From the NCBI RefSeq assembly GCF_017654315.1, contig NZ_CP072203.1, positions 3,844,001 through 3,908,000 of the forward strand: 64,000 nucleotides of DNA. The letters run 5' to 3'. The notes under the pieces are model-generated. The model was given only the letters and a program-made list of their open reading frames with translations, did no database searches and had not been told where the DNA came from. The translations under genes were made by a program, and so were the position numbers. This document shows, in pieces, positions 30,966 through 47,017 of the stretch (within the stretch, counting starts at the first letter, position 1; every line of letters starts with the position of its first letter). This DNA comes from Gordonia polyisoprenivorans. GTDB taxonomy: Bacteria > Actinomycetota > Actinomycetes > Mycobacteriales > Mycobacteriaceae.

Positions 30966-30990
30966 CCCGCGGCCGTGGGATATTTGCCAG

Positions 30991-32879: not shown

Positions 32880-32886
32880 GGAGTCC

Positions 32887-33738: not shown

Positions 33739-33747
33739 CGAGTAGCC

Positions 33748-34172: not shown

Positions 34173-34919
34173 ATGGCAGATCGATCGGCGATCGAGTGGA
34201 CCGAAGCGACGTGGAACCCCGTCACCGGCTGCGACCGCGTCTCCCCCGGCTGCGACCACTGCTACGCGCAGACGCTCGCCAAGCGGCTGAAAGCCATGGG
34301 TTCAGCCAAGTACCAAGCAGATGGAGACCCGCGGACGTCCGGCCCCGGCTTCGGCCTCACGCTCCACCCTCAAGCGCTCGATGAGCCGAAGCGGTGGCGG
34401 AACCCGCGCGTGGTGTTCGTGAACTCGATGAGCGACTTGTTCCACGCGCGAGTTCCCATTGACTTCATCCGTGACGTGTTCGACGTGATGCGCGAAACCC
34501 CACAGCACACCTACCAGGTACTCACCAAGCGGAGCCTGCGTCTGCGTCGCGTCGCCGACCGGCTCGACTGGCCGGAGAACCTCTGGATGGGCGTCTCGGT
34601 CGAGAATTCCGACGTCCTCAACCGCGTAGACCACCTCCGTGAGGTGCCGGCAGCCGTCCGCTTCTTGTCCAGCGAGCCGCTCCTCGGCCCGCTGGACGGC
34701 ATCAACCTCGATGGAATCGGTTGGGTGATCGCAGGCGGAGAGTCTGGTCCGAACTACCGGCCGATGGAACTCTCCTGGGCGAGGGGCATCCGCGACGCAT
34801 GCCAGGAAGCCGACGTGCCCTTCTTCTTCAAGCAGTGGGGCGGGCGCACACCGAAAGCCCTCGGCCGCGAGCTCGACGGTCAGCTCTGGGACGAAATGCC
34901 GGGTTCGGCGGCGGGATAG
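34173..34919 (+). CDS. DUF5131 (phage Gp37/Gp68) three-Cys-motif protein
   Basis: The 248-residue protein matches the Gp37/Gp68 family: IEWTEATWNPVTGC...GCDHCYAQTLAKRLK at the N-terminus, then FVNSMSDLFH, YQVLTKRS, LWMGVSVEN, RFLSSEPLLGPL, WVIAGGESG and FFFKQWGG. The three Cys (20, 27, 30; C-x6-C-x2-C, followed by YA) recall the iron-sulphur triad of radical-SAM enzymes, though spacing differs. The family occurs in phages and mobile islands and is known to pair with TcmP proteins. Here its stop lies 3 bases from the stop of a convergent TcmP gene. The start has GGAG 9 bases upstream. No biochemical role is established. Confidence 0.85.
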   Translation: MADRSAIEWTEATWNPVTGCDRVSPGCDHCYAQTLAKRLKAMGSAKYQADGDPRTSGPGFGLTLHPQALDEPKRWRNPRVVFVNSMSDLFHARVPIDFIRDVFDVMRETPQHTYQVLTKRSLRLRRVADRLDWPENLWMGVSVENSDVLNRVDHLREVPAAVRFLSSEPLLGPLDGINLDGIGWVIAGGESGPNYRPMELSWARGIRDACQEADVPFFFKQWGGRTPKALGRELDGQLWDEMPGSAAG

Positions 34920-34922
34920 TCC

Positions 34923-35906
34923 TCAGCCGTCTCGGTGATAGCGGAACGGCTCGACCGGCGGAGCCAGTGGCTCACGGACGGGCTCCTTCATGGCCAACTC
35001 GACGATCGTCTCAGCTCCGAACAGCCCCTCGTCGTCGTCTTTCGCGATGCGGCGCTCGATCTTCGCGGCGGTCCGCATCTTGTCGAGCGCAACCCCATGC
35101 TTAGCGAAGACTGAGGTCATGATCTTGTCGCCGGTCGCGTTCGCGGTCGCGAAGATGACGGTGTAGATCGGATGACCAGATGTGTTCGTGAACTCCAGAG
35201 GGATCGTCGTGGAGTAGCCGAGTTCACGTTCCAGCCTCCACCGCATGAGGTTCACGAGTTCCGCTCGGAAGGTCTCCGCGTTGATGACACCGTCTTTGCG
35301 GGCGTACCAGAGCTCACGCCACTGGTCAGTGTCGAACATGCGGTCCACTCGCTCGGCATATTCGGGGTCTGGCTCGTCGCCCGTGAACTGCAGTCCCCGC
35401 GGCAGCAGACCATGTCCGAAGTACAACCACAATTCGACTTTGAACCCGCGCTTGTTCTTCCGCCAGTTGGCGAGGTATCGGAGAGTCTCCCAGCGAATCT
35501 CGGCACTGAATTGATCGACCATCGCGAAGACCGCGGCGCCGCGGCGCCAGCTGTAGTCGTACGAGTCGAGGTGCCGAGGAATCACGACGTTGCAGTCGCC
35601 CGGCAGCACTACGAGGTCCCGCCCGGGGTGGGCCTGCTGAAGATCACGTCGCAGGGTCGCTGCGGTACGTGGCTGCAGCTCGCAGAGGACTACCCGATCG
35701 AACTTCGGTTCCGTCGAAAGCGCCCGGTGTCCTGACCCGAGGATGACGTTGCCAGTTCCTCGCTCGAAGTTGTCTGGCGCCCCTGCGAATAGGTCAAGGT
35801 AGAGCGTATGGCTCGCGACTTGGGAAGCGCGGGTAAACGCACCGAGGTAGTCCGAGAGTGCTTCAAGTTTGATTTTGGACCACGGACCCCACCCACGACG
35901 TCCCAC
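34923..35906 (-). CDS. tcmP: Three-Cys-motif partner protein (TcmP)
   Basis: The start is GTG 35906 with a perfect AGGAGGT site; the product is 327 residues. It shows the TcmP pattern: WSKIKLEALSDYLGAFTRA, the Rossmann-like motif TLYLDLFAGAPDN (residues 34-46), then an acidic strand VVLCELQPRTAATLRRDL as in SAM-dependent methyltransferases. Later come VFAMVDQFSAEIRWETLRYLA and VELWLYFG. TcmP proteins are named for occurring beside three-Cys-motif (DUF5131) proteins. The pair is usually co-directional, but here the two genes converge tail to tail. The enzymatic target is unknown. Confidence 0.8.
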   Translation of the reverse strand: MGRRGWGPWSKIKLEALSDYLGAFTRASQVASHTLYLDLFAGAPDNFERGTGNVILGSGHRALSTEPKFDRVVLCELQPRTAATLRRDLQQAHPGRDLVVLPGDCNVVIPRHLDSYDYSWRRGAAVFAMVDQFSAEIRWETLRYLANWRKNKRGFKVELWLYFGHGLLPRGLQFTGDEPDPEYAERVDRMFDTDQWRELWYARKDGVINAETFRAELVNLMRWRLERELGYSTTIPLEFTNTSGHPIYTVIFATANATGDKIMTSVFAKHGVALDKMRTAAKIERRIAKDDDEGLFGAETIVELAMKEPVREPLAPPVEPFRYHRDG

Positions 35907-36239
35907 GAACCACCTCCTGCGAGCGAATCTCCAGGTTGAGATACCTCGTGCAAGTATCGATGCCTGCCGGCGGTTATCACGCGAGGAGGACACACCGCGT
36001 GTCGCTGGTCACATCCACGGCGCCTCGCGGTCGCACCCCGCGCGGAGATGCTGCCCACTGCGGAGCACACTCCCGGGCCTCCGGGATATCGAGCAGTGTC
36101 GGGAACTCTTCGTGGCGCATGCGGTCCTCGGGGGTCGGTAGCGTTCACTGAGCACGATAGGAGGGTCGAAACGTTGCAGTTAGACGCGGATTTCGCGCCG
36201 ATCATGTGCACGGCAACGGGCACTTGCACCCGGAGATGC
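35907..36239. other. Leader region of tcmP and degraded island DNA
   Basis: No convincing gene is seen on either strand. The part next to 35906 must hold the tcmP promoter and its AGGAGGT site. The rest leads into integrase and excisionase remnants. Confidence 0.45.
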
Positions 36240-36418
36240 AATAGCCCGCCACCTCGCAGCCGTCGTGACGGGCTTCTGTGCGCAGTGGCCTGCGCCGTGG
36301 CGTTCCCCGCGATCAGCCTATCGATCTCGCTCGCCGGGACCAACCTCCGTCGGCCGATCTTCACGCCGCGCAAGCGACCGTCCTTCAGCTGCGCGTAGAT
36401 CAGCGACTCGGAGCACCT
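36240..36418 (-). pseudogene. Excisionase-like HTH_17 remnant
   Basis: The minus strand encodes RCSESLIYAQLKDGRLRGVK followed by IGRRRLVPASEIDRLIAG. This is the core of an HTH_17/excisionase (winged helix) domain. An in-frame TGA lies 4 codons before it, and the N-terminal helix is missing. It is a fragment left over from the older island's integration module, abutting the integrase remnant. Confidence 0.65.
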
Positions 36419-36421
36419 AAG

Positions 36422-37308
36422 AACCGCTCATCCGTCTCGCTCTGGTCTTCGCGCGCTGCAGCCCTGGGAGCAGCGTGACCGGGATCGGGAGGACGCGTCG
36501 GGCCCCGTCGGTCTTCGTGTCCGCGACCACCGCGCCGGCATCGGAGTGAACCTCTGCCGACCGCCGCCAGCATCCCCTTCTTCAGGTCAATGTAGTCCCG
36601 CCGAAGACCGGCGAGTTCCCCTCTGCGGAGTCCCATCTGGACGGCAAAGTGGTGAATGTGTTATTGGCGGTCGGCGGTCGCCTTCAAGTGTGCGGACAGC
36701 GACTGCACCTGAGCCACCGTCAGCGTCTTCGTTTCCCTCTCGCCGCGCGCGCGGGCGGCTTCACCAGACTGGCGGGGTTCCGACGCAGAGTTCCGTCCTC
36801 CACAAGTCGCTGCAGAACAGCGCGCAGTCGGGTGATCATCTTGCCGACGCTGGCGGGCGACCACGGACCGCAGGTGTCGGACGTGTACGCGGCGTTGTTG
36901 CCGGCCTTGCGCCATGTACCTGACAGCACCGTTCTTATGCCGATCTCGGACACCAGCTTCTCGATCGCTTCGCGGCGGAGGACTGCACCGGCCGGTCACC
37001 GAAACGTGCGACTGCTGGGCGCAGAACTGCGGCGTACGCGGTGACAATGTTCGATAGCCCGCCGAGTGCGTCGAGGTACGCATCCGCCGCCTCGCGTTAG
37101 GTGACGAATACCGGCGTCGCCTGCACGCCCCGGGGGAGCGATCACCGCGCCGACTGTTTGTACTCGTCGATCGCGTCCTGCACCTTACTGAACCTGGGCC
37201 TCTGCTGCTGCCGCTTACCGTCAGCTTTTCCCACCTGGACGCGGACCTCGTAGCGGGCCGCGCCGCTGGGCGGGTTACGACCTTCACGTAGTTGGGGATG
37301 CGCGTCAT
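36422..37308 (-). pseudogene. Decayed tyrosine integrase of the older island
   Basis: Successive frames give an N-terminal arm-binding piece (MTRIPNYVKVV, then GAARYEVRVQVGKADGKRQQ and FSKVQDAIDEYKQSAR). A core-binding domain follows (AADAYLDALGGLSNIVTAYAAV; WSPASVGKMITRLRAVLQRL; NPASLVKPPARAARGK). The start of the catalytic domain is present, with the first Arg box GLRRGELAGLRRDYIDLKKG and then DTKTDGARRVLPIPVTLLPG. At least three in-frame stops and several frameshifts interrupt it. The HxxR and Tyr boxes are absent, lost where the excisionase remnant begins. It cannot be active. Confidence 0.8.
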
Positions 37309-37389
37309 GCAGGTGACGGTAGACGCGATTACCGACGTTGAATCTCAACCTGTATCTTACTTGCCACCGGCGAGGCCTTCCCGGAGACG

Positions 37390-37427
37390 GGAAAACCCCT
37401 TCCGATGCTTTTCGGAAGGGGTTTTCC
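37390..37427 (-). terminator. Strong hairpin beside the left att repeat
   Basis: A perfect 16-bp stem (GGAAAACCCCTTCCGA at 37390-37405 with 37412-37427) has a 6-base loop and starts 2-3 bases after the tRNA-Pro 3' fragment. It was probably the tRNA-Pro terminator before the present element inserted. Confidence 0.7.
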
Positions 37428-37429
37428 TT

Positions 37430-37472
37430 GTCGGGCTGACAGGATTTGAACCTGCGACCACTTGACCCCCAG
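37430..37472. repeat. attL: 43-bp tRNA-Pro-derived core repeat
   Basis: Identical over 43 bases to 46851-46893. It corresponds to the anticodon loop through the 3' end of tRNA-Pro (minus strand); the 5' half of the tRNA is absent here. Sequence diverges immediately on both sides. Confidence 0.95.
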
Positions 37473-37484
37473 GTATCAATTCGG

Positions 37485-37539
37485 GGTACCGGGACGTACA
37501 TCGAGCCTGTTCACGGCACGTCTGGTACGTCCTGGTACC
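37485..37539. repeat. Inverted repeat next to attL
   Basis: Arms GGTACCGGGACGTAC (37485-37499) and GTACGTCCTGGTACC (37525-37539) are complementary at 14 of 15 positions with a 25-base spacer. Position between the core and the arm-type repeats suggests an excisionase or integration-host-type site, or a transcription barrier for the cargo gene. Confidence 0.5.
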
Positions 37540-37556
37540 CCCAGTAATTCGGGTGG

Positions 37557-37579
37557 AATGGCGCACGAAATGGCGTACG
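37557..37579. repeat. Arm-type integrase sites (left)
   Basis: Two direct repeats, AATGGCGCAC (37557) and AATGGCGTAC (37569), spaced 12 bases start to start. The same decamer occurs twice near the other end of the element (46777, 46790). These are expected binding sites for the N-terminal domain of the integrase. Confidence 0.65.
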
Positions 37580-37596
37580 TCGAACGGGTGATCGGC

Positions 37597-38418
37597 TCAC
37601 TGATCGGACGCTGATTCGTCGTCGGCTGTCACGTTCGCCCCATCGCCCGGGGGTAGTGCTTTCTGCGGCTCGGGACTTCCGAACTCGCGAATCTCGCTGA
37701 CTGTTTCACTGACGTTGGTCAGGATTCGGTTTGCCTCTTCGGTCGCGTCCGCGATTGGATTAAGGAACAGAACAAGCCCCGCCATCGCCGCGACGACCGT
37801 CTTCTTCCATTTGCCGTCCGCGAAACGGATAACCGGCACGGACAGTCCGAACAACGTCCGCGCATTCTCCATCACCGGCTCTGTACCGAAGGTCTCGGTA
37901 TTCGACAGCAACCAGTCGATGTGATCGACGAGCGTCTTGACTTGTTGAGCTAGGTCGGTCGGCAGGCCAGCTTCCTCGACTAGCTTTCGCCATTCAGCGA
38001 GCGATTCGCGCAGATTTTCCAGCTTGTCGTCAGACAGCTCCGGGTAGACCGCCCGCCGCTGGACCTCCATGTGAAGACCGAGGCCCATCAAGTGATCCAG
38101 AATCGGTAGTCGGATGATCTTTGAAGCCGGTTGGTCCGTCCTGCCCCAGCCATCCCGGAAGACAACCGCGCCATGCCAGGCCGGTACGTACTGCAAATAC
38201 AGCCGGGATTCGACCTCACCCGGGTCCAGCGAAGTTAGATGGGCCAGAACCTTGTTCATCAACCCCACCGCTTCGCCGTGCCGCAACGCGAACTCCGCCG
38301 TTCCTGGTTCTGCCCCAAGCGTCAGCTTCCAGCCTTCACCAACGGTTGTCGCCCCAGAGGTCGCAACCTTGCGCAGTATCGTGTCCAGCGCCGTTGCCGG
38401 GTTGTTCGGTATCGCCAT
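37597..38418 (-). CDS. Unknown cargo protein of the satellite-like element
   Basis: The 273-residue protein contains a mid-protein segment WHGAVVFRDGWGRTDQPASKIIRLP, helices with LENLRESLAEWRKLVEEAGLP, and one likely membrane helix near 208-225 (KTVVAAMAGLVLFLNPIAD). An acidic tail follows (DGANVTADDESASDQ). I know no named family for it. Its position, last gene before attL and set apart from the structural cluster, is where satellites usually carry accessory or anti-phage genes. Upstream lacks a ribosome-binding site, and AATACT lies 8-13 bases before the ATG, compatible with a leaderless transcript expressed in the integrated state. Confidence 0.6.
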   Translation of the reverse strand: MAIPNNPATALDTILRKVATSGATTVGEGWKLTLGAEPGTAEFALRHGEAVGLMNKVLAHLTSLDPGEVESRLYLQYVPAWHGAVVFRDGWGRTDQPASKIIRLPILDHLMGLGLHMEVQRRAVYPELSDDKLENLRESLAEWRKLVEEAGLPTDLAQQVKTLVDHIDWLLSNTETFGTEPVMENARTLFGLSVPVIRFADGKWKKTVVAAMAGLVLFLNPIADATEEANRILTNVSETVSEIREFGSPEPQKALPPGDGANVTADDESASDQ

Positions 38419-38450
38419 AATGAACGAGTATTCCAGGCGGTACGGACAGA

Positions 38451-38735
38451 TCAGGCGCGACTCACCAGGTCCATCAGTCGGTGTTCGCGCTGGAACCGAA
38501 GCATGGTGAACGCTTCGCGCATGGCGGGGTCGCCCAGGGCGCTCAGCGGCATTCCTGGGTCGTCAGGCAACCGGCAGGGGTCAGCGACCACGACGGACCC
38601 GGTTATGGCGTCCACGTCGCACTGAGCCAGGACGTACCCGCCCCCGTCGTCGGGTTTGATTCCGGCGTGCCGCAGACGGCGGCGTATTGCCCGGGGTGTG
38701 GTGCCCAGCATGGCGGCGACTTCGGCAACGTTCAT
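38451..38735 (-). CDS. Small helix-turn-helix protein
   Basis: The 94-residue protein begins MNVAEVAAMLGTTPRAIRRRLRHAGI, a MerR/HTH_17-type DNA-binding start. A strand-rich YVLAQCDVDAITGSVVV and a helical end AMREAFTMLRFQREHRLMDLV follow. It could regulate late genes or the cargo gene, or act in packaging as small terminase-like DNA recognition. The HTH plus C-terminal helices would permit the latter but do not prove it. The start ATG 38735 has AAGGGA upstream, 11 bases after the preceding structural gene. Confidence 0.65.
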   Translation of the reverse strand: MNVAEVAAMLGTTPRAIRRRLRHAGIKPDDGGGYVLAQCDVDAITGSVVVADPCRLPDDPGMPLSALGDPAMREAFTMLRFQREHRLMDLVSRA

Positions 38736-38746
38736 CGGTGGTCCCT

Positions 38747-39157
38747 TCAGTGTCGAACATTGCTCATCCCCAATGATCCGGTGAAGGTCCAGCGGCGGCG
38801 GTCGGCCACACGGGGGTCTGGTGACGGGGCCGGTAGCGCGGTGGTCTGCCAGGCGCGAACCTGGACCTGGCCCACACCACCCACCATCAGGACGCGGTAC
38901 TGGCTGGACTTCACCAGCGCGAGGACCAGACCGGCCAGCATTTCGGCCCGCCCTTGATCGAGCGCGTACACCGCGATGGTGAACGTCGGTGTGGCCAGGA
39001 CGCCGGTCCGGTCTTCGGTTCCCCCGGTCAGTGACACCTGGATGAACTCCGCCGGCCTCCGTGCCGGTACGTCGTCATGCACCGGAAGCGTGGATGTATC
39101 CACCTGTGAGGCAATGCCTTTCATCATCGTCAACAAGGCCGGGGGTGCGGGCTTCAT
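38747..39157 (-). CDS. Tail-terminator-like head-tail completion protein
   Basis: From ATG 39157, which overlaps the upstream stop (ATGA), the product is 136 residues. Its features are LTMMKGIASQV, AEFIQVSLTGGTEDRTGVLATPTFTIAVYALDQGRAEMLAGLVLALVK and WTFTGSLGMSN. This alpha/beta pattern, with aDxxRAExLa in the middle, fits siphophage tail terminators (gpU/gp17-like). Those proteins cap the tail tube and join it to the head. That such a protein is encoded without any tail-tube gene suggests it adapts a borrowed tail to the element's own head. The assignment rests on pattern and gene order. Confidence 0.65.
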   Translation of the reverse strand: MKPAPPALLTMMKGIASQVDTSTLPVHDDVPARRPAEFIQVSLTGGTEDRTGVLATPTFTIAVYALDQGRAEMLAGLVLALVKSSQYRVLMVGGVGQVQVRAWQTTALPAPSPDPRVADRRRWTFTGSLGMSNVRH

Positions 39158-39501
39158 CCGTTCACCCGCTGAAGTAGGACCACACCACCGGGGTGCCAGC
39201 CCAGCGGGTTGTACTTGCCGGAGCCAGGCACACCGTGGACTTCGTAGGTGGTGTCTGGCTCGTCCAGTAGACGGAAACGGTCCCGCGATCCCACCTGATC
39301 GACCCATCCCTTCGGAGTCAACATGACGCGATCGACCACCAGCCGGTTGTGACCTTCCGTGATCGGTTCGGACGAGTCCGGGAAGTTGAACCCGTAACAC
39401 TTTCGGTCGATTGGGTCGCCCCATTGCTCGATGGTGTTCCCGTAGTCATCTTCGCCGCCGTCGAGGAATGGCAAGTGCTGCACTGGGATTCGAGCCTTCA
39501 C
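39154..39501 (-). CDS. Head-tail stopper/connector-like protein
   Basis: A GTG start at 39501 overlaps the previous gene; the product is 115 residues. It is strand-rich: DDYGNTIEQWGDPIDRKCYGFNFPDSSEP, VVDRVMLTPKGW, YEVHGVPGSGKYNPLGWHPGGVVLLQRV. The ITEGHNRLVVDRVMLTP and GxxGxYNPxxWxPGG patterns are typical of the small beta-barrel head completion (stopper) proteins of actinobacteriophages that sit between adaptor and tail terminator. Position in the gene order agrees. Confidence 0.65.
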   Translation of the reverse strand: MKARIPVQHLPFLDGGEDDYGNTIEQWGDPIDRKCYGFNFPDSSEPITEGHNRLVVDRVMLTPKGWVDQVGSRDRFRLLDEPDTTYEVHGVPGSGKYNPLGWHPGGVVLLQRVNG

Positions 39502-39974
39502 CAGTCCGACCCACCGTGTAGCGGGTTGCCCATGAAGTCGGCGTCTTCGCCTAGAAGGAACGGGTGGACATCGGGCACCGCTGGACCCCGGGTGTCGCCG
39601 GTCAGGATCGTGGAAGCGCGCGGTCGTCGCTTGTGCTCGGCACAGATGTCGGTCAGGTCGCGGATTTCCTGGGGCTGGAACAGTCCTCCGCTACTGCCTT
39701 TCAGTGTTTCGGCGTAGTCACCGGCCTGACGCTGGATAGCAGCGCCAGAGCCGCGTTCAGCGGCCCTGAGCACAGCACCACGAAGCGTGTCTTTGACGAT
39801 TTCCTGTTGGACCGGCGTCAGGCCGGGGTATCCGGTGCCCAGGCAGGGGGCCACGCTGATGGCACGCGCCCAGGCGGATCGGATCATCGGGGTGGCCTGG
39901 TCTTCGGTCAGGTCGTCATCGAATGGACTCAGGTCACTGAACTGGATCGGTGGTGTGGGTAGCGCTGAAGTCAT
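39498..39974 (-). CDS. Head-tail adaptor-like protein
   Basis: The 158-residue protein is helical in the first two thirds (DDLTEDQATPMIRSAWARAISVAPCLG; VQQEIVKDTLRGAVLRAAERGSGAAIQ), with a Gly/Pro-rich end. The helical bundle first after the capsid gene is the usual place and shape of the head-tail adaptor (gp6/gp15-like) that docks on the portal. The portal itself is not encoded here. ATG 39974 follows a strong hairpin. Confidence 0.6.
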   Translation of the reverse strand: MTSALPTPPIQFSDLSPFDDDLTEDQATPMIRSAWARAISVAPCLGTGYPGLTPVQQEIVKDTLRGAVLRAAERGSGAAIQRQAGDYAETLKGSSGGLFQPQEIRDLTDICAEHKRRPRASTILTGDTRGPAVPDVHPFLLGEDADFMGNPLHGGSDW

Positions 39975-40001
39975 TGGTGCTCAATGCCTTTCAATGAAGG
40001 A

Positions 40002-40041
40002 GGCCCCGGGCACACACGGAGGGTTGTATGTGCCCGGGGCC
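40002..40041 (-). terminator. 13-bp GC hairpin between capsid-proximal gene and connectors
   Basis: GGCCCCGGGCACA (40002-40014) pairs perfectly with 40029-40041 across a 14-base loop. There is no clear T-tract, so it may be a partial terminator or an mRNA-stabilising hairpin. It would keep capsid mRNA high and connector mRNA low. Confidence 0.6.
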
Positions 40042-40048
40042 AGGTCAA

Positions 40049-40192
40049 TCAGCGGCGACGGCGGCGTTTGCTACCGAGGGGGCCGATCTTGCCCCCGGCC
40101 AGCTTGGTGTAGTGCTTCTTCGTCCAGCGGACACCGAACTCAGCGTTCGCGGTCCGACCCTGGGGCGTGATCTTGCCTTCAAAGTGCGCCAT
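40049..40192 (-). CDS. Small basic structural protein
   Basis: A 47-residue protein, MAHFEGKITPQGRTANAEFG then VRWTKKHYTKLAGGKIGPLGSKRRRRR, with a start 4 bases after the capsid stop. It ends in five Arg. Basic composition and tight coupling to the capsid gene suggest a minor head, cement or DNA-binding protein. No family is recognised. Confidence 0.6.
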   Translation of the reverse strand: MAHFEGKITPQGRTANAEFGVRWTKKHYTKLAGGKIGPLGSKRRRRR

Positions 40193-40196
40193 CGTG

Positions 40197-41039
40197 TCAC
40201 TCCTCGCCAATCGTGAACTTGCCGATCCGGTTGGCACGCGGGACCACGTGGCCCACACGCCAGGTCGCACGGATGGCGATCGAATCGGAGTTGAAGTAGG
40301 CGTCGGTGCTGGTGGCCACCTGGATTTCGCCGTACGCGGAGATGACTTCGGCGGAGTCGATGACCAGACCCGACGACGCGGGTACCGCTGCACTGACCAG
40401 GACCGGGATCGACAGCAACAGTGCGGCGGCGTCGGTCACGCCTGCACCGATCAGGCTGGCGTTGCTGTTCGCGGCGGTCTTGAGCTTGCGCAGCGCGGCC
40501 CAGCCGATGGGGTCTAGGACCAGGTGTGACGGTGCGGCACCGTTGGCCTGAAGTTCGGCCACCAGGTCGATCAGGGCGTCCAGGTCGTCGGCCACCGGGT
40601 CACCAGCGACCACACCAGCGATGTTGACCAGACCGGCCACCGGGGCGACGGCGGGCGAAGTCGGGGCCACCTGGGACACGAAGAGTTGATCGGCCTTCTT
40701 GGTGATGGCGCGCTTGACGCTCTTGGCCAACTGGTCGGCGGTGCCGTTCTGCTCGAACTGCTCGCGGGATACCCGGACAAGCTGGGTCACCTTGCTGGTG
40801 TACGCCAGGGCTTCGGACAGAGCCGGATCAGATTCGGGGATTTCAGCCCCCTCAGCGGTCACCTGGGCGTCGTCGTCGGCAACGTAGGCCACCCGGACGG
40901 CGATCTGGTCGCCTTCCACGGTCGCGGCCTTCGTGGACGCCTGCACGATCAGCGCGTCAGGAACGATGTCGGTCGGCGCGAAGGTCTCGACATCGGGGTG
41001 CCATGCCTTCGCGGTGTTGTTGGTTGTTGCGGTAGCCAT
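40197..41039 (-). CDS. HK97-fold major capsid protein
   Basis: From ATG 41039 (GAGGAA site 6 bases upstream) the product is 280 residues. It has the HK97-type order. A short N-arm (WHPDVETFAPTDIVPDALIVQAST) comes first, then E-loop-like VRVAYVADDDAQVTAEGAEIPESDPALSEALAYTSKVTQLVRVSREQFEQ. A spine helix (DQLAKSVKRAITKKADQLFV) and P/A-domain segments (HLVLDPIGWAALRKLK; IPVLVSAAVPASSGLVIDS; FNSDSIAIRATWRVGHVV) follow. There is no N-terminal delta/scaffold domain of about 100 residues and no protease gene nearby. It would assemble the element's own head with the separate scaffold protein. Confidence 0.85.
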   Translation of the reverse strand: MATATTNNTAKAWHPDVETFAPTDIVPDALIVQASTKAATVEGDQIAVRVAYVADDDAQVTAEGAEIPESDPALSEALAYTSKVTQLVRVSREQFEQNGTADQLAKSVKRAITKKADQLFVSQVAPTSPAVAPVAGLVNIAGVVAGDPVADDLDALIDLVAELQANGAAPSHLVLDPIGWAALRKLKTAANSNASLIGAGVTDAAALLLSIPVLVSAAVPASSGLVIDSAEVISAYGEIQVATSTDAYFNSDSIAIRATWRVGHVVPRANRIGKFTIGEE

Positions 41040-41081
41040 TGTTTCCTCATTCAGTAGTTGGATTGCGCGGGCCAACAAAAA

Positions 41082-41179
41082 AGGTGCCGACCCATGAGCG
41101 TCAATCAATCCGGGCAGCCAAGGCGATCGCTTTAGCCTAGAAAGGACACGGATTGACGAGCTTCAATGGGACGGCACCT
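41082..41179 (-). promoter_or_regulatory. Long structured RNA element / attenuator upstream of the capsid gene
   Basis: On the minus strand a 98-base segment can fold into an outer stem (41082-41095 with 41166-41179; 13 of 14 paired). An inner 8-bp stem (41099-41106 with 41151-41158) encloses a structured loop of about 44 bases. The transcript continues into six U (41077-41082), giving a terminator-like end about 35 bases before the capsid start codon. It fits a partial terminator or regulated leader. Confidence 0.6.
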
Positions 41180-41413
41180 GGCCTAAACCCAATCCGCCAC
41201 TGACGGATATATCAACAATATCAGAACTATTCTCAACTCGGGAAAAGCCCGCCCCTGCACCGATGGCGAGCAATTCCCTTTATTCAGTTATGAGCCCGGA
41301 ATAGGTATTCCCTCGTTCTCGTGGCTGAAATCTCCCGCAGCCGTAATTAACCTGGCGACCTACGTCTACCGGGGGTATGACGCACCTCACATAGGGGTAT
41401 CCCCCTGGGCTGG
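41180..41413 (-). other. AT-rich spacer between scaffold gene and structured element
   Basis: No gene is seen. The sequence is AT-richer than the rest of the element. On the minus strand TTGAGA and GATATA with a 17-base spacer (about 41208-41236) could be a capsid promoter. With 41040-41179 it makes the 374-base gap before the capsid gene. Confidence 0.4.
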
Positions 41414-41872
41414 TCAGGCGTCGATTCGGGGAGCGAATGCACCCTTCCAGGCTTCGTCCGCGTCCACCGTGGCGTCCACCCCATCGACGTTCTGGCCCTG
41501 GGTGCGATCAGGTGCCGGACGACGTGGACCATCCACGATCCCGAACCGTTCGCGTACGTCCTGCACCGCAGCACCGACCGCCGCGACATCCACCGTGCCG
41601 TCGTCGGTCAGCAGACCATCCAGGCCAGCGTCACCGCGTCCGGCCCAGAACGCTTCGGCCCGAACACCCTCGCCCAGTGCGGATTCCACCGCTGCACGCT
41701 GAAGCGCAGTCACCTGTCCCTTCAGTTGATCGACCTGTGCCCGTGCTTCGTTGCGTTCAACGCGGTACCGCGCTTCGCGATCGTTGCCGCCGCTCTGTTC
41801 GCCTGTACCTGCCTGACCCTGGTCAGTACCCGCATTCACACCCGACAGTTCGTCAGAGTTGTTGTCAGCCAT
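41414..41872 (-). CDS. Scaffold-like phage protein
   Basis: The 152-residue acidic, Gly/Gln/Asp-rich protein has a coiled-coil segment REARYRVERNEARAQVDQLKGQVTALQRAAVESAL (about 32-66). GVRAEAFWAGRGDAGLDGLLTDDGTVDVAAVGAAVQDVRERFGI follows. This layout (disordered N-terminus, coiled coil, then a DDGTVD/VRERFGI-type tail) is typical of actinobacteriophage scaffolding proteins encoded just before the capsid gene. Its ATG overlaps the previous stop. Confidence 0.75.
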   Translation of the reverse strand: MADNNSDELSGVNAGTDQGQAGTGEQSGGNDREARYRVERNEARAQVDQLKGQVTALQRAAVESALGEGVRAEAFWAGRGDAGLDGLLTDDGTVDVAAVGAAVQDVRERFGIVDGPRRPAPDRTQGQNVDGVDATVDADEAWKGAFAPRIDA

Positions 41873-42092
41873 TGCTCTTACCTTCTTCCTTGTCCATCAG
41901 TGCCACTGCTTCCAGGGTGTCCACCATCCTGTTGCTTGCTCGTAATACCGTGCGGCTCAACCACTTCACCTGTCGCTGTGCCCGCCGTAGTTCCTTCCGC
42001 GTGCTTGTCAGCTGGTGCCGTAGCTGTGCGTTCTTGGCCCGCTCTGCCTGGAGCGCACGCATACCCGGCGCACCCAGCGCGCTGTCAGTCAC
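41865..42092 (-). CDS. Small basic coiled-coil protein
   Basis: From GTG 42092, which overlaps the upstream stop, the product is 75 residues. Nearly all of it is one charged helix (RALQAERAKNAQLRHQLTS, RKELRRAQRQVKWLSRTVLR). The end overlaps the scaffold start by 8 bases. It may be a small assembly factor or capsid-size determinant, but no family is recognised. A longer reading to 42350 gives Arg/Ser-rich non-native sequence and is rejected. Confidence 0.55.
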   Translation of the reverse strand: MTDSALGAPGMRALQAERAKNAQLRHQLTSTRKELRRAQRQVKWLSRTVLRASNRMVDTLEAVALMDKEEGKSNG

Positions 42093-42196
42093 GACCACAC
42101 CAGGCTGAACGCCAGCCAGATCGGCAGGGCTAGGGCCAGCACTGCCAGAACCTCGGCCACTGCCCCGCGTACCGCGTCGTCCGTTAGCCACGACAT
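42089..42196 (-). CDS. 35-residue single-pass membrane peptide
   Basis: ATG 42196 overlaps the stop of the upstream gene (TGATG), and the TGA at 42089 overlaps the GTG of the downstream gene. The peptide is MSWLTDDAVRGAVAEVLAVL then ALALPIWLAFSLVWS: a short acidic head and one hydrophobic helix. Stop-start overlaps at both ends are the main evidence that it is translated. Function unknown; candidates are a membrane-perturbing, holin-like or superinfection peptide. Confidence 0.6.
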   Translation of the reverse strand: MSWLTDDAVRGAVAEVLAVLALALPIWLAFSLVWS

Positions 42197-42444
42197 CATC
42201 CCTCCGTCCGAACGACGCCAATCCACATCGAGAGGTCGCGATCGTTGTCGTGGACGACCTGCCCGCCGTTGAGCGGAAAACGATCCTTGGCCGCGCCCTG
42301 ATCGTCATAGGCCGTGTCTGGTGGCACGTTGTACCCCTGCATGACCTCACCGACAGCGGGGGTCATAGGTCCATCGGGTTCTGGATCGCTGTCCGACATC
42401 ACACCCCGAAACTCGGGTAGTTCGGAAAAGTCCCGTGCTTGCAT
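42196..42444 (-). CDS. Small acidic hypothetical protein
   Basis: The 82-residue protein starts at ATG 42444 with AAGGA upstream. It is acidic and Pro-rich (FRGVMSDSDPEPDGPMTPAVG; NVPPDTAYDDQGAAKDRFP) and ends NDRDLSMWIGVVRTEG. It is the first gene of the late-type overlapping cluster, directly downstream of the iteron-like region. No family is recognised. Confidence 0.6.
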   Translation of the reverse strand: MQARDFSELPEFRGVMSDSDPEPDGPMTPAVGEVMQGYNVPPDTAYDDQGAAKDRFPLNGGQVVHDNDRDLSMWIGVVRTEG

Positions 42445-42711
42445 CTCGATCCTTCTTTCTGCCCCATCGCGGGGCTGTTGATCCGGCCACCGTGACCGGA
42501 AGGCTGTTGATTGAACCCCCGAATGGGGTCCTATATCTTCTGTAGGACTTCAATAGTTCAGAAGACCTGGTAGATACCTGTTTATGCGCCATCCGCCGGG
42601 GTTCAATGCTTCAATTCCCAAGATTGAACCCACCACAATCTGCAATTCATGACGTGACCTGCACATATTCCTAGCGATTGAAGGATTGCAGGTTTGCAGG
42701 GGGTAATAGGT
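42445..42711. other. Iteron-like AT-rich region; candidate replication origin
   Basis: The 267-base gap next to the primase gene contains ATTGAACCC at 42510-42518 and 42623-42631 and its complement GGGTTCAAT at 42599-42607. Near-copies (TTCAATA, TTCAATT, GATTGAAGG) and two GGCTGTTGAT repeats (42473, 42502) also occur. Repeats beside a replication gene are the usual look of a satellite origin. It must also contain the promoter for the downstream small genes. Confidence 0.5.
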
Positions 42712-44802
42712 TCAGTCATCGGAACTGCAATCGTCGTCGCGATCGTGATCCGCGTAGGACAGCGACCACAGCATTTCGCGCCTGTCGTTGCGCCGACCCT
42801 GGCCCGCTTGACCTTCGTCTACGATCTTCTGCCAAGCGGAGTCAACCGACCGGGGACTCACTGCCGCACACTTGTGTTCGGCAAGGACCTCGTTGGTCTC
42901 GATGATGGCCTTCGGTCGCGGAGTACGCCCCCGACTCAGAACCTGGACCAACGCCTTCGCGGCTGTCATTCGCTCGCGGTCCGGTGCAGCGTCAGCAGCG
43001 GCTCTCTTGCGGGCGTCCACGTACTGGTCCCACACCTTGACTGGAAGGCTCTCCTTGTGAACCAACTGCGCGACAGTGATTGCCTTACCGCGCTTCGTCT
43101 GTAGTCCCGTATCGACCTCGGCAAGCTCGAATCGGTGCGTCGTCTTGGGGTGCTTCAGGTTGGTCTTCTCGACGCCCGTGTACAGGCAACCGTCCTCCGG
43201 GTCGATGTAGGAAAACAGCGTGGCGCGAGCTTTCTTCCGCAGCGACAGCGTGAGTCCATAGACTTCGCGGGCTTCGGTCGCCTGACCGTTACCCCGGTTG
43301 GTGTGGGCGAGCAACAACACCCCCGCGCCGGTAGCTGTCGCGAACCGAACCCAGGTGGACATCGCCTGTAGTGATTCCTGGGGATTCTTCAGGTTGAGCT
43401 TTTCAACCGAGTCAGCCCACATGTCGATCGCCACGAAGTCCGGGCGGAAGTCCACCAGCGCGTCGGTGTACTCGTCATTGGGGAACATCGGGAAATCTGC
43501 GCCTGAGTTGTCGGAGAACATCACCAGGTAGGGCGAGTCTTCCGGCACGCCCAGCAGCTTCAGCCGCGTGGCCACCATGCTGGGTTCGGTGGCGATCAGC
43601 ACGACCCGACGAGGTTCACCAGGCGGTATGTCCCACGGTGCCCATCCGGACCCAGTAGCCAGCGCTGCAAGGATATGGAGCGTAAGCGTTGTCTTCGCTG
43701 ATTCTTCACCACCGAGCAAGACGGTAACGGCACCCTCGAATAGCCCTTCGCCGATCGGTTCAAATATCTGTTCGTCCACTTCATTCAGCCTTCGTAAACG
43801 TATGGGATTCTCGTAAACACCGTCACGGTCTTCTGATCCGGTATTCTTGGTGTCGGGCACTCCTTTGTTCCCTTTCTTATGCGCCGCACTCCGTTTACCC
43901 CGGGGTGTGGCGCTGTTCTTTGCCGCGTATGCGCTGAGAACCTGTTCATCGCGTGATCCCTCGGCCCATCGGTCTGGCATGAGATCGTCGGGGTCGTAGC
44001 CGCGTGCCTGTTCGACCGGGACACCGTGCTCAGCGCACGTCATCCAGAACCGCCAGAACGCTTTCGACACGTCCGGGGCTGAGTGAATCTGGCTGTAGGC
44101 GGTGCGAACCTTCGTTCGCGCCTTCAGTGACAGCGCTCCAAGGTCCATTGGCGCGATGTCGATCGCCCCACCTGTATCGGCCACCGCTTCACGGGGAACG
44201 TCGGCCAGAATGGCGTTGAGCGCTTCAACCGTGGTGCCCACACGGTTCTTGCCGATCGCCACGGGGCGCGGTGGGTCGTGCTTGAAGTTGAACGTGCTCG
44301 TAATGCGAAGCACCCCGTTCGGCTCAGCCTTCCCACCATCGACCACACCCAGCTTCCGATACAGGCGAGTCCCAAGGTCTTTGAGTTCGTCGTGGTCCAG
44401 GTCGCGGTCGAGCATGACGCGGACGTGGAAGTGTCCTTCGGTCCCGCTGTCGGTGATCGTCGCGCCTACTGCACGCAACAGATCGGTAGCCGCTTCGTCG
44501 TCGGCCAGTTCGTCAACCTCGAAACTGATGACGTTGGACGCGATTGTGGGACCGCTACGCGAATCGCTCTCACACAATGACGTTGGCTTGTAGACATCCC
44601 GGCCAGCCTTGACCAGTTCGACCACCCGACTGGCCGCGTCTGACGCCCGGTCCGGGTACTGGAAGAAGTCCTGGCCCCAGGTGCCCTTCTTCGTCACGGG
44701 GTCGCGGTCACGGACGTGGCCAATGCACACGTAACCGCGCCGGTCGCCGTAGTCACGGCGGAAGTCGTTCAGAACGTCCGCTCGTTTCACTGTTACACCC
44801 AC
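42712..44802 (-). CDS. Primase-helicase-type replication protein (AEP-like domain plus RecA-like ATPase)
   Basis: The 696-residue protein has two parts. Residues about 1-215 resemble archaeo-eukaryotic primase/RepB-like domains: NVISFEVDEL, TDSGTEGHFHVRVMLDRDL with the His-x-His strand, and NGVLRITSTFNFKHDPPRPV. Residues about 330-560 are an AAA_25/RepA-like ATPase with Walker A GGEESAKTT, Walker B PDFVAIDMWAD and sensor LLLAHTNRGNG. The C-terminus looks like a winged helix and acidic tail. The P-loop has Ala where Gly is usual (SAKTT for SGKTT). It would initiate replication at the adjacent iteron-like region. The start is GTG 44802. Confidence 0.75.
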   Translation of the reverse strand: MGVTVKRADVLNDFRRDYGDRRGYVCIGHVRDRDPVTKKGTWGQDFFQYPDRASDAASRVVELVKAGRDVYKPTSLCESDSRSGPTIASNVISFEVDELADDEAATDLLRAVGATITDSGTEGHFHVRVMLDRDLDHDELKDLGTRLYRKLGVVDGGKAEPNGVLRITSTFNFKHDPPRPVAIGKNRVGTTVEALNAILADVPREAVADTGGAIDIAPMDLGALSLKARTKVRTAYSQIHSAPDVSKAFWRFWMTCAEHGVPVEQARGYDPDDLMPDRWAEGSRDEQVLSAYAAKNSATPRGKRSAAHKKGNKGVPDTKNTGSEDRDGVYENPIRLRRLNEVDEQIFEPIGEGLFEGAVTVLLGGEESAKTTLTLHILAALATGSGWAPWDIPPGEPRRVVLIATEPSMVATRLKLLGVPEDSPYLVMFSDNSGADFPMFPNDEYTDALVDFRPDFVAIDMWADSVEKLNLKNPQESLQAMSTWVRFATATGAGVLLLAHTNRGNGQATEAREVYGLTLSLRKKARATLFSYIDPEDGCLYTGVEKTNLKHPKTTHRFELAEVDTGLQTKRGKAITVAQLVHKESLPVKVWDQYVDARKRAAADAAPDRERMTAAKALVQVLSRGRTPRPKAIIETNEVLAEHKCAAVSPRSVDSAWQKIVDEGQAGQGRRNDRREMLWSLSYADHDRDDDCSSDD

Positions 44803-44833
44803 GGGGTGCTTCCCTTCTTCCGAATACCTCGCT

Positions 44834-45013
44834 TCAGGCCGACATGCCCTGAGAACGGTCGATGAAGTCCTGGAGCGCGGAATCGGCTACGCGCCGCGCC
44901 CGACCGATCTTGAGCGATTTGATTTCGCCGCTATCCATTAGTCGATAGACCGACATTCTCGACATCTGAAGGTGTTCAGATACCTGGGCTACGGTGTACA
45001 GCTTCTCGGCCAT
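44834..45013 (-). CDS. xis: Excisionase (HTH_17 recombination directionality factor)
   Basis: The 59-residue protein reads MAEKLYTVAQVSEHLQMSRM then SVYRLMDSGEIKSLKIGRAR and RVADSALQDFIDRSQGMSA. This is a complete HTH_17 domain as in actinophage excisionases. ATG 45013 has GAAAGGA upstream. It is the first gene of the divergent leftward operon and controls integrase direction. It is intact, unlike the similar remnant at 36.3 kb. Confidence 0.85.
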   Translation of the reverse strand: MAEKLYTVAQVSEHLQMSRMSVYRLMDSGEIKSLKIGRARRVADSALQDFIDRSQGMSA

Positions 45014-45035
45014 TTCGGTTCGTCCTTTCCGTTAT

Positions 45036-45085
45036 TGGGTAGTACCCAGTTAAACACAGCTTGTCTCTATTTGTGTTTATTTAAC
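45036..45085. promoter_or_regulatory. Divergent control region with palindromic operators
   Basis: Between xis and the regulator lie TGGGTAGTACCCA (45036-45048, perfect dyad) and the inverted pair TAAACACA (45051-45058) / TGTGTTTA (45072-45079), flanked by GTT and AAC. These fit operators for the Cro/CI-type regulator encoded to the right. Confidence 0.6.
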
Positions 45086-45171
45086 ACTTAGTGACGACCT
45101 GTGTGCTTGCGGGACACCCAAGATACACCGTGCGCTTGGGAAGTCAACTAGCCGGGTGTATTGTGTTTCCC

Positions 45172-45648
45172 ATGCGCAAAGAACAGACCAGCGGTTGGGC
45201 GCTGGACACATACAGAAGGTTCGGTGAGGCGGTCCAGGCCGCCCGGAAGGTGAAGGGGTGGACCGCACAGCAATTGTCCGACCGCACAACAGAACTCGGC
45301 TACCCGATTAGCCGGTCGGCCATCGCGAACACCGAGTCGGGACGTAAGAAGGCACTGGACCTGACCGAGGTTCTGATCCTGGCAAAGGCCCTGGACGTGT
45401 CGCCGCTCGAACTGATCTACCCGGGTCTACTCGACGCCGAAGTGGAAGTCTCCCCGGGTGTGGTCGTGCGGTCGTCGGACGCGGCCCTGGCCTTCGCAGG
45501 TGCCCAGGACTACAACCCCCTGTTCGACATCGCGGTGACCGAACAGGACCTAAAGGTGGTGGACGACCCGAACGGGTACAAGCGGATCGCCAGCGCGCGC
45601 CGAGACGCGAAGCGCCGGGGATGGGTGGTCAACGATGGCGAAGCGTAG
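45172..45648 (+). CDS. Cro/CI-type helix-turn-helix regulator (satellite master repressor candidate)
   Basis: From ATG 45172 the product is 158 residues. An XRE/Cro-CI helix-turn-helix covers RFGEAVQAARKVKGWTAQQLSDRTTELGYPISRSAIANTESGRKKALDLTEVLILAKALDVSPLELI (residues about 15-82). A short acidic C-terminal region lacks a LexA-type protease motif. Such a repressor would be relieved by a helper-phage protein rather than by RecA-driven self-cleavage. It overlaps the integrase start by 14 bases, so both are expressed in the integrated state. Confidence 0.8.
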   Translation: MRKEQTSGWALDTYRRFGEAVQAARKVKGWTAQQLSDRTTELGYPISRSAIANTESGRKKALDLTEVLILAKALDVSPLELIYPGLLDAEVEVSPGVVVRSSDAALAFAGAQDYNPLFDIAVTEQDLKVVDDPNGYKRIASARRDAKRRGWVVNDGEA

Positions 45649-46777
45649 GGGTAACTCGGAAGGAACGATCACCCAGCGTCCGAACGGGACGTGGCAGGGA
45701 CGTATCCAGCGGACCGACCCAGACACCGGCAAGCGTGAGCGGGTGTCGGTCTACGGGAAGACGGCGGACGAAGCACGGGCGAAGCTGAAGGGCGTCCGTG
45801 AGCGCTGGGAAGCCGGGGCTCCTGCACGAGACGCCAAGGACAGCGTGGGGTCGTGGATGAAGCGCTGGCGGACCACTTCCCTGGTCGCTTCGGACCGGAA
45901 GCCGACGACGAAGGCCCTGTACGACGGACTCAGCCGTAAGCACCTGGAAGAAGGCGACTTCGCCGCCACACGCCTGGATCGGTTGCGGCCCAGTGACATT
46001 GAGGCGCTGATCGTCGCTCTACGAAAGAAGAAGCTGGCCGACTCCACGGTTCGGTCCATCTACACCGTGCTGCGTGCCGGACTCGACGGCGCGGTACGTG
46101 ATGGCCTGCTGGCGACAAACCCGGCGACGAAGGTTCCCCGACCCCGTGTGGACCGCGACGAAGCCAAGTCCATCGGCCCCGATCAGGTCGCTCAGTTGCT
46201 TCAGGAAGCCCGATCCAGCCGGTACTACGTCGGCGTACTGATCATGGCCCATACCGGCCTACGGAGGGGCGAAGCGGCGGCACTTCGGTGGACTGACATT
46301 GACTTCACCAAGCGCGAACTGAACGTGACCCACACCCTGGCCCGGATCGACGGGGAGCTGTCCCTCAGCAAGCCAAAGACGAAGCGGTCGCGGCGACGGG
46401 TGCCACTGTCCGACGTCCTGGTTACCGAACTGAAGGCGACTCGCAAGCGTCAGGCCGAAGAACAGCTACGGGCTGGCTCGGCCTGGGCCGGTCACCAGCA
46501 CATGGTGATGACCACCGAACTGGGCACGATGGTGGACCCCCGGAACCTCCTCCGCGTTGTGCAGGTCGCGGCAAAGGCGGCGGATCTCGAAGGCGTCGGC
46601 GCACACACGCTACGGCACAGCGCGGCGACAACTTGGTTGGAAGCTGGCGTTCATGTGAAGGCGGTCGCTGACCTGTTGGGCCACGGCTCCATCGCGGTTA
46701 CCGGCGACCTGTACGGCCACACCACCGACGACGCGGCGCGGTCTGCGGTGACCGCCCTGGCCAAGCTGATCAAGTGA
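45635..46777 (+). CDS. int: Tyrosine-type site-specific integrase
   Basis: The 380-residue protein has three parts. The N-terminal arm-binding domain is GTITQRPNGTWQGRIQRTDPD with YGKTADEARAKLKGV. The core-binding domain follows (about 70-165). The catalytic domain has Arg in HTGLRRGEAAALRW (near 210), HTLRHSAATTWLEAG (near 323), LLGHGS and the nucleophile Tyr in LYGHTTDDA (near 359). All catalytic residues are present. It integrates the element at the tRNA-Pro 3' half, whose attR copy begins 73 bases after its stop. Confidence 0.95.
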   Translation: MAKRRGNSEGTITQRPNGTWQGRIQRTDPDTGKRERVSVYGKTADEARAKLKGVRERWEAGAPARDAKDSVGSWMKRWRTTSLVASDRKPTTKALYDGLSRKHLEEGDFAATRLDRLRPSDIEALIVALRKKKLADSTVRSIYTVLRAGLDGAVRDGLLATNPATKVPRPRVDRDEAKSIGPDQVAQLLQEARSSRYYVGVLIMAHTGLRRGEAAALRWTDIDFTKRELNVTHTLARIDGELSLSKPKTKRSRRRVPLSDVLVTELKATRKRQAEEQLRAGSAWAGHQHMVMTTELGTMVDPRNLLRVVQVAAKAADLEGVGAHTLRHSAATTWLEAGVHVKAVADLLGHGSIAVTGDLYGHTTDDAARSAVTALAKLIK

Positions 46778-46800
46778 ATGGCGTACTCAAATGGCGTACG
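46777..46800. repeat. Arm-type integrase sites (right)
   Basis: Two direct copies of AATGGCGTAC start at 46777 and 46790. The same decamer and a one-base variant occur at 37557-37579, so both lie on the element side of each att core, as expected for P and P' arms. Confidence 0.7.
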
Positions 46801-46810
46801 AGGACGGAAA

Positions 46811-46842
46811 AGGGGCGGCTTCCGTTTCCAGAAACCGCCCCT
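46811..46842 (-). terminator. Hairpin terminator downstream of tRNA-Pro (inside the element)
   Basis: AGGGGCGG (46811-46818) pairs with CCGCCCCT (46835-46842). On the minus strand the stem is followed by TTTTCC, so it can end the tRNA-Pro transcript. It may also serve the integrase gene on the other strand. Confidence 0.7.
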
Positions 46843-46850
46843 GACCTGCG

Positions 46851-46893
46851 GTCGGGCTGACAGGATTTGAACCTGCGACCACTTGACCCCCAG
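46851..46893. repeat. attR: 43-bp core repeat within tRNA-Pro
   Basis: Identical to 37430-37472; forms the anticodon loop to 3' end of the intact tRNA gene, which the element restores on integration. Confidence 0.95.
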
Positions 46894-46925
46894 TCAAGTG
46901 CGCTACCAAACTGCGCCACAGCCCG
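46852..46925 (-). tRNA. tRNA-Pro (anticodon GGG)
   Basis: The 74-base minus-strand gene has an acceptor stem CGGGCTG/CAGCCCG and discriminator A. The anticodon arm is CTTGA-CTGGGGG-TCAAG (anticodon GGG), and the T arm is GCAGG-TTCAAAT-CCTGT. CCA is not encoded. Its 3' half is the integration site of the element. Confidence 0.95.
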
Positions 46926-47017
46926 TTGCCGTGATCCGAGAAGCTCTCGTTATCAAGGCGTAGATGAGACTAGCCGACGATCTACCCAGGGAGCCAATCG
47001 GCTGGTCAGGGCACTGA

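Follow-up and report, generated by a model that had tools for sequence, protein, structure and literature searches.

A candidate helper-dependent cos satellite with its own capsid genes in Gordonia polyisoprenivorans

In a stretch of 64,000 nucleotides from Gordonia polyisoprenivorans (assembly GCF_017654315.1, contig NZ_CP072203.1, positions 3,844,001 to 3,908,000 of the forward strand; hereafter the window, to which all coordinates refer), we examined a compact element integrated at a tRNA-Pro gene. The element combines genes for integration and replication with genes for its own major capsid protein (MCP), a scaffold-like protein and three neck proteins, and it carries a cos-like site. An initial annotation had proposed a helper-dependent satellite of actinobacteriophages, and this is still the best reading, supported by matches of the neck genes and the cos-like site to Gordonia phages of the Emalynvirus group.

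Genes and boundaries of the element

The 43-bp att repeats reported in the initial annotation are identical copies, located at 37430–37472 and 46851–46893, and the unit between them, as it would be excised, is 9,421 bp. The 27-bp att core, with up to three mismatches allowed, is present at these two positions of the window and nowhere else, compared to none expected from shuffled sequence. At the right end, the repeat makes up the 3' half of tRNA-Pro(ggg) (46850–46925, minus strand), and the tRNA gene adjacent to the integrase is therefore intact. A structured RNA scan of 37000–47000 returned nothing besides the tRNA at E ≤ 0.5.

Two rightward genes lie next to the tRNA and encode the integrase (Int) and a CI-like regulator. 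All others are leftward, in the order excisionase (Xis), AAA_25 replication protein, a motif-rich gap, an 82-aa protein, the small protein s108, scaffold-like protein, a gap of 374 bp, MCP, a 47-aa protein, head-tail adaptor, stopper, tail terminator, the helix-turn-helix (HTH) protein HTH94, and a 273-aa protein. The frames of the integrase (380 aa), CI-like HTH protein (158 aa), Xis/HTH_17 protein (59 aa), AAA_25 protein (696 aa) and MCP (280 aa) are open, as are the rest. These frames and their family matches bear out the intact integrase, excisionase, Cro/CI-type regulator and primase-ATPase that had been annotated, whereas the annotated capsid cluster, which does contain a Phage_capsid MCP, can be refined to scaffold-like genes, MCP and three neck genes. 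The features are as follows.

37430..37472, no strand: attL, 43-bp copy of the tRNA-Pro 3' half (repeat search)
37597..38418, minus: 273-aa protein with a hydrophobic stretch near its C terminus (six homologues, itself included)
38451..38735, minus: HTH94, 94-aa HTH protein, kin of the Emalynvirus-group HTH protein gp32/gp33 (phrog_15118, 7.4e-8; tblastn 1.7e-8 to Cleo)
38747..39157, minus: tail terminator, Tt (phrog_123, 6.6e-20; 52% to Gordonia phages Horseradish and Yummy)
39154..39501, minus: head closure protein or stopper, Hc (phrog_763, head-tail adaptor/head closure, 3.8e-26; 79% to HippoPololi gp12)
39498..39974, minus: head-tail adaptor, Ad (phrog_1290, 4.5e-26; residues 4–130 81% to Fribs8 gp10)
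40049..40192, minus: 47-aa basic protein (also in the related locus L087)
40197..41039, minus: HK97-type MCP (PF05065 Phage_capsid, 3.6e-16; phrog_10, 8.9e-20)
41366..41407, minus: cos-like site, CAGGGGGATACCCCT-N17-CCCCCGGTAG (resemblance to the phage junction continues to about 41330)
41414..41872, minus: 152-aa scaffold-like protein (C-terminal segment in common with the Emalynvirus-group scaffold)
41865..42191, minus: s108, small protein (weak head-scaffold PHROG matches, 0.02; 100% amino acid identity in the related locus L006)
42196..42444, minus: 82-aa protein (open frame)
42445..42711, no strand: ATTGAA/TTCAAT cluster, candidate replication origin (hexamer count)
42712..44802, minus: replication protein with AAA_25 ATPase domain, primase/helicase-like, 696 aa (AAA_25, 6.3e-13)
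44834..45013, minus: excisionase/AlpA-like HTH_17 protein (Xis), 59 aa (HTH_17, 1.7e-12)
45172..45648, plus: CI/Cro-like regulator, 158 aa (HTH_3, 6.5e-7)
45635..46777, plus: tyrosine integrase, 380 aa (Phage_integrase, 3.4e-24)
46851..46893, no strand: att copy within the intact tRNA-Pro(ggg) (repeat and tRNA search)

None of the 15 open reading frames (ORFs) scanned in the element matched a portal, large terminase (TerL), prohead protease, HNH, tail tube or tape measure family in Pfam or PHROGs. The sole hint of packaging among them is a weak match of HTH94 to the small terminase (TerS) family phrog_57 (E 0.02). We rejected an intact prophage, of which a nearby module had been named as the refuting observation: no portal, terminase or tail-tube gene is recognised in the element, and the host genome yielded no phrog_2 TerL, no PF05133 SPP1-type portal and no match to HippoPololi TerL (1e-10), in searches there confined to these three queries. 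The MCP gave an AlphaFold2 model with a pLDDT of 79.7. The s108 protein bears a weak likeness to the N-terminal part of the Emalynvirus-group scaffold (tblastn 0.001–0.005).

The iteron-like region of the initial annotation holds up as a cluster of hexamers: six of the twelve ATTGAA/TTCAAT copies in the window fall within 42440–42720, where base composition predicts 0.13, and the cluster adjoins the replication gene. Longer repeats in this region are short and imperfect. An 81-aa ORF lying over the motifs (42347–42592) has no family match in Pfam or PHROG and is probably not a gene. The AAA_25 protein has no relative in viral contigs.

Resemblance to phages of the Emalynvirus group

The DNA of the adaptor and stopper genes (about 75%) matches 11 of 50,697 phage records, which represent nine Gordonia phages (HippoPololi, Fribs8, Cleo, Survivors, Azira, Nibbles, MaVan, Gibbous and Dre3, with Azira and Gibbous recorded twice), and in all 11 the DNA matches lie over these two genes. 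The records of Fribs8, Cleo, Emalyn, SteamedHams, Amok and Cozz give the genus as Emalynvirus; that of HippoPololi names no genus. HTH94 (1.7e-8) and a 34-residue C-terminal segment of the scaffold-like protein (50–62%) match phages of the same group. Such matches allow the likely helper to be named from sequence, as these nine phages of the Emalynvirus group. In another Gordonia genome, we noted a TerL 60% identical to that of HippoPololi (L120, G027:C185:7481-9103), possibly part of a resident helper-like prophage.

A second line of evidence comes from the gap between the scaffold-like and MCP genes. Here CAGGGGGATACCCCT, 17 nucleotides and CCCCCGGTAG reproduce both blocks, and the spacing, of the right end of the helper-group phage genomes. 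The resemblance extends across the junction of the linear genomes into the phage left end, and is clearest in L006, a related element in Gordonia sp. ABSL1-1 (CCCCCGGTAGGCATT...GTTTTTAC...GGGAG). When searched with the HippoPololi genome end, the phage records return the same 11 that match the adaptor and stopper, plus one weak Mycobacterium phage. In ungapped comparisons with three phage junctions, 42–45 of 79 positions are identical at the element's site and 36–38 at the next best place in the element; the corresponding values for L006 are 48–55 and 36–39. The exact two-block motif is found only in the host among 59 Gordonia genomes, and in no viral contig. This pattern was composed after the match had been seen, which makes its zero chance expectation post hoc, and it misses the site of L006, itself in one of these genomes, where the first block differs.

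A matrix built from six phage ends alone, in order to avoid hindsight, offers a cleaner test. We scored it against first-order resampled shuffles, five for each of 42 MCP-bearing loci (210 in total). Six loci exceed all 210 shuffles: L006 (43.8), L100 (21.1), L090 (14.2), the element described here (12.0), L087 (11.7) and L099 (9.3). Two more are borderline (L101, 0.01; L098, 0.02), and the others do not stand out. Of 522,068 control positions outside elements, none scores above 3.2, compared to at least 9.3 in the six positive loci, and the top reverse-strand score among the 25 loci listed is 4.1. By blastn, parts of L087, L100 and L013 matched no phage genome end among the best 15 of 63, 3 of 3 and 12 of 94 matches, respectively; the matches listed lie in HNH or adaptor genes or are short stretches.

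The cos-like site of L100 is nearest to that of Cozz (54/90, z 7.4 in a 90-base scan), and its adaptor is 63% identical to that of Emalyn versus 51–53% for HippoPololi, Fribs8 and Cleo. In the present element and L006, both cos and adaptor are of the HippoPololi/Cleo/Fribs8 kind. Cos type and adaptor type thus appear to shift together, as expected if a satellite is fitted to its helper, over a comparison of two helper types only. The adaptor of L087 had no match among the phages.

Neck proteins this close in lineage to those of the phages (79–81%) could also serve as decoys. The element might then be mainly a poison of phage assembly, whose scaffold, MCP and neck proteins trap helper portals and tails, with any DNA moved in full-size heads as cos concatemers; four or five units (37.7 or 47.1 kb) would bracket the helper genomes (44.8–46.0 kb). 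The conserved integration, replication and cos-like features point instead to transfer, and we find a role of this kind very improbable.

Related loci, constraint and the tRNA-Pro site

A protein search identified 275 MCP homologues among 8,000 scored candidates, and the named ones among the best 120 are all actinobacterial (Gordonia, Nocardia, Mycobacterium, Leucobacter and others). Against the 50,697 phage records there was no tblastn match at E ≤ 1e-5 and just two at E ≤ 10 (E 1 and 5), while PHROG and Pfam profiles place the MCP as a remote relative of phage MCPs. Scanning for the MCP gave 25 loci in GTDB contigs and four in viral contigs, two of the latter distant; within the host's family, matches at E ≤ 3.5e-65 occur in 18 of 301 genomes, host included. 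After exclusion of loci with a distant MCP (L033, L034), duplicates (L031, L088, L094) and fragments (L027–L029), we mapped 42 non-redundant loci, this element among them. The genes of relatives come from a home-made caller and their families are single-linkage clusters; the small loci L054–L083 lie outside the gene map, and replication genes were left uncounted because one cluster (c2) mixes replication and WhiB-like proteins.

Across the 42 loci, we counted scaffold genes in 38, integrase in 32, excisionase-like genes in 28, CI-like genes in 10, adaptor in 10, HNH in 9, s108-like genes in 4 and HTH94-like genes in 3, with HTH94 relatives present in L087 and L100. The scaffold lies beside the MCP in all 38, and 30 loci have both scaffold and integrase. 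Integrase was uncalled in 10 loci and scaffold in four, in some cases because contigs end. From the integrase start to the MCP end the median distance is 6.8 kb (31 loci). Stopper and tail terminator occur only in this element and L006, even with Emalyn queries included.

The 106 ORFs of at least 200 aa from the satellite zones belong mostly to replication and host families (judged from the 25 most frequent families out of 89 in PHROGs and 65 in Pfam). A single portal family match appears among the families listed, in agreement with a portal beside TerL in an element that neighbours the L032 satellite. We added a screen for portal and terminase genes (10 chosen ORFs in Pfam, 20 in PHROGs, and HippoPololi and Emalyn TerL and portal queries against the called genes), which a divergent terminase in a single locus could escape.

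L006 has its integrase beside tRNA-Gly. Its capsid-neck module is 86–89% identical in DNA to that of the present element, and elsewhere the two share only a 59-bp stretch. Pairwise dN/dS ratios (NG86) between them are 0.13 for MCP, 0.33 for scaffold, 0.21 for adaptor, 0.21 for stopper and 0.10 for terminator; s108 has a ratio of 0 and the two proteins are identical. Such low ratios in shell and neck genes suggest working genes rather than relics.

The tRNA-Pro site was searched in the 59 Gordonia genomes. A single att copy is present in the 4.6–4.7 kb read from each of the two genomes that, among the matches listed, are closest at the right flank (L114 and L115, 96% and 95%), which is consistent with an empty attachment site. 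Second att copies of 43–50 bp exist in at least five other genomes (G021, G025, G032, G035 and G038). Islands at this att in four of them (L116–L119) differ from the present element; three have integrase-like matches and the fourth just a weak MCP match. The site looks like an integration hotspot in Gordonia. To the left of attL, 30796–37501 appears to hold the decayed remains of an earlier island at this tRNA-Pro site, with overlapping integrase-like frames at 36400–37501 (judged by eye; Pfam gives no match for 37142–37501), a DUF5131 gene (34173–34919, Pfam 6.4e-103) and three ORFs without a Pfam match at 1e-3.

These data bear on whether the element is a reduced capsid-forming phage-inducible chromosomal island (PICI) or prophage relic, immobile after loss of portal and terminase. 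Elements with related MCP and scaffold that do carry portal and TerL exist, as beside the L032 satellite (MCP 29% identical to that of the present element, scaffold in the same cluster), and the cited passages of PMC3986857 describe mycobacterial elements such as phiBN44_1 that have MCP, scaffold, portal and terminase; the cos of the present element has also diverged. Against such decay, the frames are open, dN/dS is 0–0.33, the only portal among the 106 ORFs, in the families listed, is that of the L032 neighbour, and the two closest relatives have one att copy. We regard a relic as unlikely. The initial annotation would have been undermined had only degraded relatives existed, but relatives with open frames do occur.

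Several related loci deserve separate mention. In L032 (1–14719), a tRNA-Val/Cys/Gly cluster lies between two capsid islands, one with and one without portal and TerL, and these are possible intermediates between satellite types. L099, cos-positive though neither integrase nor scaffold was called in it, has a TerS homologous to that of HippoPololi (3.3e-29; oriented 11087–11602) adjoining its adaptor and cos-like site. The host genome itself holds a second, distantly related capsid island (L084, G000:C1:4205000-4224900; MCP at 12728 in the locus) near tRNA-Val(tac), with scaffold, HNH-like and integrase-like genes. Upstream of the scaffold in L007, L011, L013, L014, L017, L018, L020 and L025 is a Cys-rich small protein, WhiB-like by eye, which is perhaps a late regulator of host type.

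A proposed cycle and its precedents

On balance, we favour the view that the element is an integrated, helper-dependent cos satellite that encodes its own MCP and scaffold and relies on an Emalynvirus-group helper for portal, terminase and tail. Induction, packaging, particle structure and transfer, as we infer them, would proceed as follows. The helpers would be siphophages of the Emalynvirus group with cos packaging, namely HippoPololi, Fribs8, Cleo, Azira, Gibbous and their relatives. Their infection would free the element from CI-type control, by analogy with satellite biology; Int and Xis would excise it, and its own AAA_25 protein would replicate it at the ATTGAA cluster. Helper TerS and TerL, perhaps together with the helper HNH protein, would cut and package at the satellite cos, a site recognised by resemblance. 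Satellite MCP and scaffold would form the shell around a helper portal. This is the weakest step; it is suggested by the joint occurrence of scaffold and MCP and by the helper-like segment of the scaffold. Satellite adaptor, stopper and tail terminator, whose genes and helper lineage are evident, would complete the neck and accept a helper tail.

Several observations weigh against this view. The MCP has no detectable relation to the MCP of the helper group (hmmsearch about 1 bit; hhalign probability 1.7%), and since the element encodes no portal, the use of a helper portal in the satellite shell is a supposition. We found no counterpart in the element of the phage gene that separates stopper from tail terminator, and a different Gordonia species, G. 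rubripertincta NRRL B-16540, served as the isolation host of the Emalynvirus-group phages. Others concern the cos-like site. Compared with the L006 site it has diverged further, also within the GGTAGGCAT block, and partial decay is possible. Gapped local alignment to three phages scores other parts of the element as high or higher, blastn at word size 7 places no match at the site among those listed, and in the 90-base identity scan the site (z 5.39) is surpassed by the highest value on the reverse strand (5.66, in L028). With the matrix, two phage genomes have second places that score 6.6 and 5.8, and the forward score exceeds the reverse in just 28 of 42 loci; 34 of the 42 have neither a clear nor a borderline site.

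The MCP also bears on a further alternative, namely that the element redirects capsid size, as Ccm of SaPIbov5 does, through a satellite MCP that mixes with or reshapes the helper shell. There is precedent in SaPIbov5, which is mobilised by cos phages and whose MCP-like Ccm joins a shell with the helper capsid protein (passages of PMC6893505). Ccm, however, is 23% identical to that capsid protein according to the same account, while no relation is detectable here, and in 38 of 42 loci the MCP comes with a scaffold gene. Size redirection seems distinctly unlikely to us.

The helper-dependent cos satellite can be set beside known systems, as far as the cited passages describe them. The closest published set is formed by candidate PICIs of Mycobacterium (PMC10654092), which like this element have integrase and MCP in one phage-like region. 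Some lie in tRNA genes and some have scaffold or helicase, and they were catalogued there with neither helper nor induction demonstrated; some carry a terminase, which the present element lacks. The present host is Gordonia, and a helper group is indicated by the cos-like site and neck genes. Satellites have been suggested to occur among small actinobacterial prophages below 15 kb, a field in which experiments lag behind (PMC10023795). Mechanistically, SaPIbov5 is the precedent, with cos phages and an MCP-like protein (PMC6893505). Cos-type SaPIs such as SaPIbov5 with Ccm have in common with the element an MCP-like gene and a cos site of helper type, the latter by resemblance here, and differ in that the element adds its own scaffold and neck genes, that the hosts are unrelated, and that the element's MCP is not recognisably related to a helper MCP.

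Capsid-forming PICIs, like the element, have their own MCP and head-tail connectors, and they use a helper tail, as the element would. Their definition includes portal and terminase (PMC10690885), and portal, head protease, TerL, TerS and HNH have no confident match among the 15 ORFs, which places the element outside it. The satellites MulchRoom and MiniFlayer of Streptomyces are likewise actinobacterial and have their own MCP and scaffold; unlike the element, they encode terminase and portal and are described as without key replication genes (PMC10690885). The analogy to phiRv1 and phiRv2 drawn in the initial annotation applies to size, as these are integrated elements of 9.3 and 10.8 kb that have been called PICI-like (PMC3986857, PMC10654092), but not to integration, in which phiRv1 uses a serine recombinase (PMC3986857) and the element a tyrosine integrase. 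PICIs in general have been defined by unique att sites, exclusive genes, phage-dependent induction, a conserved organisation of the origin, helper interference and specific packaging (PMC6092414). The element has genes for Int, CI, Xis and a replication protein; its exact 43-bp att is specific, yet other Gordonia islands share the site.

More tentatively, and leaning slightly against so broad a claim, we suggest that these islands may form an actinobacteria-wide class of portal-less capsid satellites, each combining a private shell of MCP and scaffold with the portal, terminase and tail of a helper, and that they could be retargeted by exchange of cassettes (cos, neck proteins, the contact segment of the scaffold, and HTH94, HNH or TerS). 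Shell and helper interface would then evolve separately, the cos would identify the helper of each satellite, and the cos matrix could be used to assign helpers to other satellites. What is new is that a likely helper group can be named for a capsid-encoding Gordonia satellite. Sequence alone nominates phages that are isolated and sequenced, which makes induction and packaging directly testable and poses a sharp structural question, namely whether an unrelated satellite shell can be built on the portal of a helper. Among the titles and opening parts of abstracts listed, we found no description of a Gordonia satellite or an Emalynvirus helper; most subscription papers lie outside that scope, and we make no claim of absence.

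The gene at 37597–38418, initially annotated as cargo, matches no known cargo or defence family. Its 273-aa product scores below the Pfam cut-off, has a best PHROG match of 0.36 and no PADLOC match, and a word-based search of 5.8 billion sequences found only six homologues, itself included. Two of these are probably on the same contigs (9,302 and 5,246,627 bp) as the close MCP homologues P0001 and P0002. We therefore rejected imported cargo and a known defence gene, and the protein is probably specific to the satellite. One contig of near element length (9302 bp; P0122) encodes a homologue with 76% identity, and a contig of equal size appears in the MCP cluster record; it is possibly an excised or packaged relative.

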